The position numbers were made by a program, and so were the translations under genes. Below the pieces are notes generated by a model, which made no database searches, had not been told where the DNA came from, and saw only the letters and a program-made list of their open reading frames with translations. From an uncultured Lachnospiraceae bacterium (GTDB lineage: Bacteria; Bacillota; Clostridia; Lachnospirales; Lachnospiraceae): a stretch of 35,161 bases of DNA. Positions 25,141-28,775 of this stretch are shown piece after piece. The DNA lies in assembly GCA_949740385.1 (NCBI GenBank), contig CATJJD010000235.1:1-35161 (forward strand). The letters are read 5' to 3'. Position 1 is the stretch's first letter. Every line of letters begins with the position of its first letter.

Positions 25141-26190
25141 GTGGACAGTGACAGAAAACAGGGAGAAATTGCGGCGCCCGGGACATTCGACGCTTTATCC
25201 GGGCAAAGAACGGCGCTTATGGGAGTCGCCATTATCATGATTCTCATCTTTCATTACACGGAGGACTGCAAGATCTATAAGGTGCACTACGAGGGCTTTG
25301 TGGAGTGGTACAAAACTTACGTGGGCTCCTCCAGCGTGGATCTGTTTCTGTTCCTCTCAGGGCTTGGGCTGTATTTTTCCATGAAGAAAAATCCCGGAGT
25401 GGCCGGCTTTTACCGGAGGCGTCTGGTGCGGGTGCTTATCCCCTATCTGGCGGTGGCGGTGCCGGCCTGGTATGTGTACGACATGATACTGACGGGCGAG
25501 AGCGCCGGGCGGTTTTTCCGGGATCTGACCTTTGTGACGTTCTTTACCGAGGGTGTGCGGTGGTTCTGGTATATCGGGGCGATTCTCGCCGGCTATCTCG
25601 TCTATCCCCTGGTGTTTTTGGCGGTGGACCGGTGCAAGAGCGGGATTTTGCGGGCTGCGGTTCTTCTCCTGGCGGTTTTGGCCGTGACGGTCTGCGCGGC
25701 GCAGATGCGGGAGAGCAATCCGGAGCTGTTCGGGGACATCAACATTGTAGTTCTGCGCATCCCGGCGTTTCTCGCCGGCTGCTTTTACGGGCGGGTCAGC
25801 TACGAGAACAGGAGCGTCGGCTGGCTGTGGCTTTTCGCCGCCGCGGCGTCGGTATTTTTTGTGTCGGAGGTTCCGGAGGCGGACTCCGTGATCTATGTCC
25901 GCTATGCCCTTGCGGCCGCCAACATCAGCCTGTGCGCCTGCGGGGCCGTGCTGCTTAAGCTGCTGCAGAAGGCGGGCGCCCTTTATACAGTGATTTCCTG
26001 GTTCGGGACCCACTCGCTGGAACTCTATCTGACCCATGTGGCCATACGAAGGATTATGTGCGAGCTGGGGTATCTCACCTGTGAGCCTTTGTACGAGGCG
26101 GTTATGGTTGCGCTTGCGGTTGGGAGCGCGTGGCTGCTGGGACGGATTGGGGAAGTGCGGATCGGGAGGAGGAAGGAGTGTGCGGGGTGA
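25141..26190 (+). CDS. Acyltransferase family 3 (OafA/WecH-like) membrane protein
   Basis: Multiple TMs, RTALMGVAIIMILIFHYTEDC, SSSVDLFLFLSGLGLYFSM, FYRRRLVRVLIPYL, FWYIGAILAGYLVYPLVF, HSLELYLTHV; GTG start. Confidence 0.88.
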   Translation: MDSDRKQGEIAAPGTFDALSGQRTALMGVAIIMILIFHYTEDCKIYKVHYEGFVEWYKTYVGSSSVDLFLFLSGLGLYFSMKKNPGVAGFYRRRLVRVLIPYLAVAVPAWYVYDMILTGESAGRFFRDLTFVTFFTEGVRWFWYIGAILAGYLVYPLVFLAVDRCKSGILRAAVLLLAVLAVTVCAAQMRESNPELFGDINIVVLRIPAFLAGCFYGRVSYENRSVGWLWLFAAAASVFFVSEVPEADSVIYVRYALAAANISLCACGAVLLKLLQKAGALYTVISWFGTHSLELYLTHVAIRRIMCELGYLTCEPLYEAVMVALAVGSAWLLGRIGEVRIGRRKECAG

Positions 26191-26641
26191 AAAAGCATTT
26201 CAATGTGACCGGCGTATGCAGACCGCCGACCGGTGGGAGATACCGATTTCCGACGACTTTCCCTTTCAGGATCTGGGGGACTGCATCCCGGCGCTCTGCA
26301 GCAAATGCGGCAGAAAAATCGTGCTTATGATCGACGAAGTGGACTAAAGCTCGGACAACCAGATCTTTCTGACGTTTCTTGGGCTGCTCCGGAAAAAATA
26401 TCCTGATCAGGTGCAGGACGTGACGTTTCACCCGGTGATTCTGTCCGAGGAGGAGCTTATGCAGGGCAGCTCTGGCGCGGAAACGCATATCAGGAGAGGG
26501 GAGAGCAGCAGCTTTTCGGCTATCTGGAGTATTACGGGCAGGACAGAGGCTATCTTTTGAGTTTTAATTTTAACAGGCATAAAAAACGGAATACAGGAGA
26601 TTGTGCGGAACGGAAAAACGATTATGGAAGCTGTGGCGTGA
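26187..26641 (+). pseudogene. Decayed AAA-ATPase-like / PD-(D/E)XK_9-type protein (PF09820/PF08011-like)
   Basis: Fragments in order: VKKHFNVTGVC (N-term), CGRKIVLMIDEVD-stop-SSDNQIFLTFLGLLRKKY (Walker B region with in-frame TAA), QLFGYLEYYGQDRGYLLSFNFN in another frame, and NGIQEIVRNGKTIMEAVA* (C-term); Walker A region missing. Confidence 0.75.
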
Positions 26642-26689
26642 CGGTTTTGGGCAAAGCAAATCAGTTTGAAAGGTTTATGGAGCGGGAAT

Positions 26690-28015
26690 ATGAACTTTTT
26701 GGAAATAAAAAATTTTGGACCAATCAGCAATCTGAAAATTGACGTGGATAAAAATATTAATATGATCATCGGACCGCAGGCATCCGGAAAAAGTACGATT
26801 GGAAAAGTACTGTTTTTCTGTAAAAAGATTAAGGAATATTATATTGATTTTGTTTTACAGGATATTGTTTTTTTACAGACACATCCGAATGAGCTTTATA
26901 TTAATTTTCTAAAATATATCCGTCGAAATTTTATGGGCTGCTTTGGAACTACAAAACATATGGCGCCTTTTGAGATTACTTATTCGTATCCCAACAGACA
27001 GAATGTATGCCTGAGTTTAAGAGGTGGTTATGCGTACTTCAGGTTTTCGGATAAGCTTGAGGGAGAAATAAAGAGATCTCTGATGGATGCGTATCAGATC
27101 TACAGGGAAAATCGACTGCAGAAAAGTATAGATTTTATCAGTAACTTTAACAGTAAGCTGCAGCTGAAAAATGAGATTAAGGTTCATTTTTCAGAATTGG
27201 CAAATGAAATGTTCGGCTCAGCCGAGGAGATTATATATATTCCGGCAGGCAGAAGCCTTTTATCTGTATTATCAGATCAGCTGGGTGCAATTGATACTTC
27301 AATTCTTGATTTGCCGATGAAGGAGTTTATTGAAAAAATCGGAATGACGCGGAAGCGGTTTGGATCAAAGTTGGATACCGTTGTAGACGATTATTTAAAG
27401 ACTGTGCAGGGGCAGATCAAAAATACAGATATTCGTTTGGCCGAGGAGCTGATCAAAAATATTTTGAAGGCGGATTATGTGAATGATACGGATGGAGAAA
27501 AATTATACTTTGATGAGACACATTGGGTTAAGCTGATATACGGATCTTCCGGTCAGCAGGAGGCATTATGGATTTTATTGCTTTTGTTTATTGTGATTCT
27601 TGAAAATAAGGAATCGTATATTGTACTGGAAGAGCCGGAAGCACATTTATATCCTGTTGCACAGCGAAATATGGTAGAGCTTATCGCATTAACGATGAAT
27701 TCAAGTAACAGTAAATTTTTAGTTACTACACATAGTCCGTATATACTTACCGCAACAAATCTGTTAATACAGTCATCTGTTGTTGAGAATCGAATTGCAG
27801 CAAAGAACGAAGAGACAATTATTAAAAAACAGCTGCGAATTGCTCCGCAAAAACTATCGGCATATAAGATCGGAGATAACGAAAAAGGGATTTTGGAAAA
27901 TATTGTTGACAGGCCGTCCGGGCTGATTCGATCGATTGAGATTGATTCTGTGTCGGAGATAATTAACGATGAGTCAGATAAACTGGATACGTTGGAGATG
28001 AAATATGATCTGTGA
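26690..28015 (+). CDS. AAA family ATPase (SMC/OLD/AAA_15-like), candidate defence ATPase
   Basis: Start trimmed to ATG 26690 (ggagcggga RBS). MNFLEIKNFGPISNLKIDVDKNINMIIGPQASGKSTIGK (Walker A), GSSGQQEALWILL (ABC-signature-like), YIVLEEPEAHLYP (Walker B), FLVTTHSPYIL (H-loop). Confidence 0.88.
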   Translation: MNFLEIKNFGPISNLKIDVDKNINMIIGPQASGKSTIGKVLFFCKKIKEYYIDFVLQDIVFLQTHPNELYINFLKYIRRNFMGCFGTTKHMAPFEITYSYPNRQNVCLSLRGGYAYFRFSDKLEGEIKRSLMDAYQIYRENRLQKSIDFISNFNSKLQLKNEIKVHFSELANEMFGSAEEIIYIPAGRSLLSVLSDQLGAIDTSILDLPMKEFIEKIGMTRKRFGSKLDTVVDDYLKTVQGQIKNTDIRLAEELIKNILKADYVNDTDGEKLYFDETHWVKLIYGSSGQQEALWILLLLFIVILENKESYIVLEEPEAHLYPVAQRNMVELIALTMNSSNSKFLVTTHSPYILTATNLLIQSSVVENRIAAKNEETIIKKQLRIAPQKLSAYKIGDNEKGILENIVDRPSGLIRSIEIDSVSEIINDESDKLDTLEMKYDL

Positions 28016-28499
28016 AAAACTTTATGAATGCTGTGAGAACAGCCGGTTTGCATGTGAAAATAAGAAAAACTGCATTGTGTACAGGGATTTTAGAAAAGAA
28101 GCGGTTTGTGGAGAAAAGAAAAAAAGGTACAATCTGATAAATGACGGCGGAAATTTGATTACTTTGTTTCATATGGATGGAGGCATCATTCGTGACGACA
28201 CAGATGTGCAGAGATGTGATTTTGTGTATGCAATAGATGATCAGAATTGTCCGACCGCCATTTTTGTTGAATTAAAAGGTAAGGATATTAATCATGCTGT
28301 TCGACAGTTAAAATCTTCGATTGACATGTATGGGACAAAATTGAAAAGAAGAATATGTGCAAGGATTATCTGCAGTTCAGTTCCACGCATGTTTAATGAT
28401 CCTGCAGTCAAAGGGCTGAAAAAAGAACTGGGGAAATGCTATCAGGGCACGCTTGCAATCTGTGAAAAGAATCAGGACGAAAGATATTCTCAAATCTGA
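28005..28499 (+). CDS. Small Cys-rich protein with PD-(D/E)XK-like motif, coupled to the ATPase gene
   Basis: 11-bp overlap (atgatctgtga) with the ATPase; RCDFVYAIDDQNCPTAIFVELKGKDINHAVRQLKSSI fits D...ExK...Q (D72, E89, K91, Q101). Confidence 0.65.
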   Translation: MICEKLYECCENSRFACENKKNCIVYRDFRKEAVCGEKKKRYNLINDGGNLITLFHMDGGIIRDDTDVQRCDFVYAIDDQNCPTAIFVELKGKDINHAVRQLKSSIDMYGTKLKRRICARIICSSVPRMFNDPAVKGLKKELGKCYQGTLAICEKNQDERYSQI

Positions 28500-28637: not shown

Positions 28638-28775
28638 ATGACGGAAGGCGGATTTCTTGCTTTCATATTTATTATTATCGGGATTGCGGTTCTCGGGGCG
28701 GTCATTGCGGTGATTGCGGCGGTATCGGGAGCGTCGGCGGCGATTGTCGATGAGGAGAATTCGCAGGACGATTAA
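28638..28775 (+). CDS. Small single-TM hydrophobic protein (45 aa), not in the ORF track
   Basis: MTEGGFLAFIFIIIGIAVLGAVIAVIAAVSGASAAIVDEENSQDD*; RBS taagggagg upstream, promoter upstream, terminator immediately downstream. Confidence 0.5.
   Translation: MTEGGFLAFIFIIIGIAVLGAVIAVIAAVSGASAAIVDEENSQDD

Follow-up and report, generated by a model that had tools for sequence, protein, structure and literature searches.

The window (the whole 35,161 nucleotide stretch of uncultured Lachnospiraceae DNA that was analysed) contains two overlapping genes, here called A and B, that quite probably form a horizontally acquired phage-defence cassette, in which an ATPase sensor would control a nuclease effector in an abortive infection response like that of WonAB. 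With similarly good, though not complete, confidence we place the pair as a Bacillota member of the family that contains WonAB, and not as a new kind of system. A sequence-only reading of the same DNA had proposed a candidate undescribed defence system; "undescribed" does not stand, since the pair falls in the family of the tested WonAB system (PMC12137116) and of the in-silico family "OLD-ABC ATPase + novel REase". The coordinates of the cassette are given in Table 1.

Table 1. Features of the two-gene cassette in the window
Feature	Position	Strand	Description
Gene A	26690..28015	+	441-aa OLD/SMC-like ABC ATPase (AAA_15); putative sensor/activator
Gene B	28005..28499	+	164-aa PD-(D/E)XK-fold protein; putative nuclease effector
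A/B overlap	28005..28015	+	11 bp
DNA homology to L001 and L002	26685..28489	+	73%

The start of gene A is taken to be the first ATG of the interval in Table 1, which has a GGAG 8 nt on its 5' side; an alternative in-frame TTG at 26666 would give a longer frame, and we favour the ATG because homology to the closest relative begins only 5 nt before it. A second GGAG, at 27994-27997 and thus within gene A, is the likely ribosome site for B, and this site and the overlap of the two genes are consistent with translational coupling. The same 11-bp overlap is found at the related loci L001, L003 and L066, and in most relatives the gap or overlap between the two genes is at most about 15 bp. Purifying selection supports the view that both are real genes: the dN/dS values between the window and L001 are about 0.06 for A and 0.10 for B (with dS saturated), and the value for gene A between L001 and L002 is 0.023. 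Scans for tRNAs, repeats and Rfam families turned up neither an integration site nor a clear repeat in the flanks nor an RNA element, and promoter-like sites do not exceed the chance level.

The protein encoded by gene A has the motifs of an ABC-type ATPase as follows: Walker A GPQASGKST (K34), IPAGR (R188), signature GSSGQQEA, Walker B YIVLEEPEAH (E315) and H-loop TTHSPYIL (H348), with a C-terminus that extends about 90 aa past the H-loop. The Walker A motif, the IPAGR arginine, SSGQQE, EEPEAH and THSP vary little or not at all among its relatives. In a Pfam search A matches AAA_15 at 4.7e-29, with AAA_21 and SMC_N ranking below, and no second domain, TOPRIM included, was found on it. The open reading frames confirm the ATPase and its partner, four of these motifs and the 11-bp overlap as the sequence-only reading had given them.

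Gene B is less easily recognized; the window's B protein matches no Pfam family, and a B profile gave no match to PDB sequences at E<=10. That it has a PD-(D/E)XK fold is nonetheless well supported by residue conservation, predicted topology and structural matches taken together, and its nuclease activity is putative. All 24 B proteins compared, the most distant at about 21% identity, keep D58, D72, E89, L90, K91, G92 and Q101 unchanged, so the nuclease core predicted earlier (D72, E89, K91 and a glutamine, here Q101) is retained throughout, and the 24 aligned effector sequences fix the catalytic core of the B family. An AlphaFold2 model built with 10 aligned homologues (pLDDT 83.8, pTM 0.85; a single-sequence model with pLDDT 37 was discarded) has strands at 51-56, 73-78 and 84-90, a helix at 95-113 and a strand at 116-123; D72 opens the second strand and E89-x-K91 closes the third, and this strand-helix order fits the PD-(D/E)XK core. 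Foldseek matches of the model to the PDB are weak (best E 3.2e-3, TM 0.27-0.35), and the leading ones are nearly all PD-(D/E)XK nucleases (Mus81, XPF, FokI, PaqCI, MspJI, BstEII, BamHI, Can2 and Cap4). Model topology and structural matches agree on the type of partner that had been suggested from the letters.

Are the two genes found together elsewhere? Searches with B alone recovered 19 loci, from genomes of the same genus, class and phylum, Bacteroidales plasmids and viral contigs, and A lies directly upstream in 19 of 19. Searches with A alone recovered six further members of the clade, on phage or prophage contigs, and B is the next gene in 6 of 6. Co-occurrence, a check named in the sequence-only reading, holds at all of these loci, and the pair is conserved together across Bacillota, Bacteroidales and phage or prophage contigs. 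Relatives of the window pair include one in Quinella (L003) and those of four genomes that belong to a single family in G609's class; the family of G609 is probably Selenomonadaceae-like. Of 62 same-genus genomes, 6 carry the pair, counting the one the window comes from, and the remaining carriers have it at other sites; in the class sample it is present in 3 of 391 genomes; tblastn of A against plasmids gave no match at 1e-10. A degenerate CDW...ELKG pattern picked out 29 loci, which lack a B homologue by profile search. Some copies may be damaged, either as decaying copies or through sequencing or assembly error: at L002:8001-8494 B is frameshifted by a 1-nt deletion, and at L013/L022 an in-frame stop splits A.

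Base composition, an empty site and this patchy distribution indicate that the cassette was acquired horizontally, and recently, in agreement with the earlier suggestion, whose G+C counts for two named sequence lines (18/60 against 41/60) are exact. The cassette is 36.8% G+C and the rest of the window is 55.4%, and the GC3 of gene A is 0.38, about 14 sd below the average of 12 other genes in the window (0.753, sd 0.027). The DNA homology to L001 and L002 is limited to the interval listed in Table 1, with unrelated flanks in the window-L001 comparison, so the mobile unit, as conserved, is only the two ORFs; the pair travels by itself, having neither its own island nor its own integrase. The empty site is in G970 (locus L047), the closest same-genus genome that has the neighbouring efflux gene, where about 140 bp separate ispD from the small ORF and the efflux gene that come next, and both the cassette and the acyltransferase gene that adjoins it in the window (25141-26190) are missing. 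Because this acyltransferase gene has a host-like G+C of 0.59, its gain or loss was probably independent of the cassette.

Other features of the surroundings are as follows. Directly upstream of the cassette, 26192-26554 is a decayed fragment with in-frame stops (it reads ...GRKIVLMIDEVD*SSDNQIFLTFLGLLRKKYPDQ...), the first 50 aa of which match longer frames (338-546 aa) in four genomes of the genus; it looks like the remnant of an AAA-ATPase_like gene, and its pieces gave no match in Pfam. Downstream, at 28638-28769, is an ORF of 44 codons that encodes a hydrophobic stretch and also lacks a Pfam match; it is conserved in G970 and G966, where it lies upstream of the efflux gene. Polysaccharide gene clusters are a known variable region, and at L007, L022, L025, L065 and L066 the pair lies in or beside polysaccharide/glycosyltransferase clusters (by annotation at L007, by eye at the rest). 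At L067:7562-11091 it sits between two Gate-domain genes that resemble spore-maturation spmA/spmB.

The closest tested counterpart of the pair is WonAB, an OLD-ABC ATPase and PD-(D/E)xK nuclease (AWB73975.1 and AWB73976.1) from the WASA-1 prophage of V. cholerae, an abortive-infection system that gives full protection against phage ICP1 (PMC12137116). Both are two-gene operons with an OLD-type ABC ATPase first and a small PD-(D/E)xK protein second, and both have a GPQAxGK Walker A and a CD-x-ExK-Q core. WonAB activity requires WonA K34, R182, E300 and H333 and WonB K71 (PMC12137116), and these correspond to K34, R188, E315 and H348 of A and K91 of B. The differences are that B (164 aa, 18.9 kDa) is larger than WonB (16.1 kDa), the excess being mostly a Cys-rich N-terminus, and that the host is one of the Bacillota, whereas WonAB has been reported mainly in Gram-negatives (PMC12137116). 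In a tree of the ATPases, those paired with a WonB-type protein group in a single clade (100/99), separate from the Gabija-type and PD-T4-4-type ATPases. Viral loci L098-L103 and L010, with B proteins of 139-145 aa, share the window's clade, and at one of them, the phage locus L101, A has K33, R181, E301 and H336 and B is 16.1 kDa with K71, as in WonB. The published wonA forward primer encodes PQANGK of the Walker A motif (GPQAxGK in the clade) and the wonB reverse primer encodes CDWILS in one frame (CDW/CDF in the clade); as exact patterns the two primers gave no match in the viral contigs. We infer kinship to WonAB itself from motif positions, mass, primer translations, the clade and the published family statement, and not from a direct alignment. 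That statement concerns "OLD-ABC ATPase + novel REase", the in-silico family of Krishnan et al. 2020 as it is presented in PMC12137116, with an Anaerovibrio lipolyticus pair (SHI83489.1 and SHI83462.1) as the example; according to that account it takes in all WonAB homologues and is present in 0.96% of genomes. The window pair shares its gene organisation and is placed there by description, not by alignment. A Bacillota branch of the WonAB-type family now stands beside the tested Gram-negative one, and our literature search found no published phage-defence test of a Bacillota member.

By analogy with WonAB, A would dimerize as an ABC-type ATPase, hold and control B (by homology) and sense a phage-induced signal; activated B would then cleave host nucleic acid, most likely RNA, and the infected cell would stop growing before phage are made. 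In WonAB the nuclease is predicted to sit on the C-terminal extension of the ATPase dimer. WonAB halts growth and translation while DNA is not degraded, from which its authors propose RNA (rRNA or tRNA) as the target (PMC12137116), and that the target is the same here is our guess. It is also conceivable, if rather unlikely, that the pair, as a defence system of this family, works by B cutting phage or plasmid DNA directly, in a restriction-like or anti-plasmid manner, and not by abortive infection. The best structural matches of the PD-(D/E)XK fold are after all DNA endonucleases, and OLD-family ATPases often regulate DNA nucleases (PMC10952713), but overproduced WonB blocks translation and leaves genomic DNA intact (PMC12137116), and the shared unit consists of A and B only, with no methyltransferase or modification gene. 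We think it improbable that the cassette is a toxin-antitoxin module in which A merely sequesters a toxic nuclease B and which is selected mainly for self-maintenance: a 441-aa ATPase as the first gene is unusual in order and size for a type II module, and WonB is toxic only when WonA is there with its ATPase activity (PMC12137116), so that plain sequestration is excluded for WonAB, even though two overlapping, horizontally mobile genes with a patchy distribution are what such a module would look like. A role outside defence, for instance in DNA repair or recombination, with a RecF/Rad50-like ATPase and a small nuclease, is less probable still, for although the ATPase superfamily takes in RecF, RecN and SMC, a core repair function should be less patchy than a pair found in so few class and genus genomes, and the pair has foreign composition, copies on viral contigs and a clade shared with phage-borne WonAB-like pairs.

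Abortive infection by a sensor-effector pair is thus the reading that we prefer, and the neighbourhoods of some relatives may lean towards defence as well: an AbiH gene (L064:5496-7109) is the second gene from the pair, a gene for a type IV methyl-directed restriction enzyme (L024:12294-15494) is the third, and the candidate defence gene PDC-M03B (L066:6618-7328) is directly upstream. No other defence genes were identified in the window's own neighbourhood, and many relatives adjoin housekeeping or polysaccharide genes, outside classical defence islands.

The sole feature found here that goes beyond existing descriptions of the family is the Cys-rich N-terminus of B. In the window it has C3, C9, C10, C17, C23 and C35. 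Within about 40 N-terminal residues, the window, L001 and L025 proteins have six cysteines, that of L066 has four and the others have 0-3. The spacing C-x5-C-x(7 or 13)-C-x5-C-x11-C matches among the window, L001 and L025 proteins and is kept in the distant genome G950. This N-terminus may bind metal. More tentatively, and we would not favour it at present, the window's subclade (the window, L001, L002 and L025, with L066 partly included) could be a variant in which a possibly metal-binding module on B alters the target or trigger relative to WonB. A divergent Gram-positive member is in any case a useful comparison for the trigger and target of the family.

Among catalogued systems, PADLOC-DB 2.0 already holds a candidate that matches the pair, PDC-M29 (PDC-M29A and PDC-M29B, with profile lengths of 410 and 164 aa), and PADLOC was one of the checks that the sequence-only reading had named for its claim of novelty. 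Both components match the models (A at 4.1e-23 and B at 2.1e-4) by E-value, which is not an official PADLOC call. Apart from a broad AriA/AAA_15 model, no PADLOC family fits A better than PDC-M29A, which scores 80 bits in the window and matches A in 8 of 8 relatives (best 2.9e-49). PDC-M29B is likewise the best PADLOC family for B and matches five of the eight relatives (best 3.3e-10), but the window's B matches it at about 2e-4 over residues 46-110 only. By these profile matches the window's B appears to be a divergent member of PDC-M29, which is itself a computational candidate; we found no paper that mentions PDC-M29 by name. PD-T4-4, identified by functional selection for defence against phage (Vassallo et al. 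2022; PMC9519451), also pairs an AAA_15 ATPase with a PD-(D/E)XK nuclease, but A scores 52 bits to PD-T4-4_A against 80 to PDC-M29A, and the PD-T4-4_B model does not match the window's B at E<=1 (one relative matches at 0.0069). The PD-T4-4-like viral ATPase at L118 (147 bits) is outside the window's clade, and L026 was left out of the family because its B is weak and its A is in the PD-T4-4 part of the tree.

Septu (PtuAB), Gabija (GajAB) and PARIS (AriAB) share the ATPase superfamily of A, and the earlier view that the pair belongs to none of them held up. The search for HNH or PtuB gave no match to B (Septu), A has no TOPRIM and the 164-aa B has no UvrD/helicase match (Gabija, whose viral loci are separate from the window's clade in the tree), and B has no match to AriB (DUF4435/TOPRIM). 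The best PADLOC match of A, PDLC02979 "AriA", was rejected as an indication of PARIS, because its match coincides with the generic AAA_15 region and there is no AriB downstream. Five viral relatives of the ATPase (L108, L110, L113, L116 and L120) are paired with another kind of protein, which is about 190-204 aa long and has an AELKSS or IELKDV motif; the partners at L113 and L108 gave no match when scanned against PADLOC. These five ATPases form a clade of their own near the PD-T4-4-type ATPases and may represent another unlabelled ATPase-nuclease pair.
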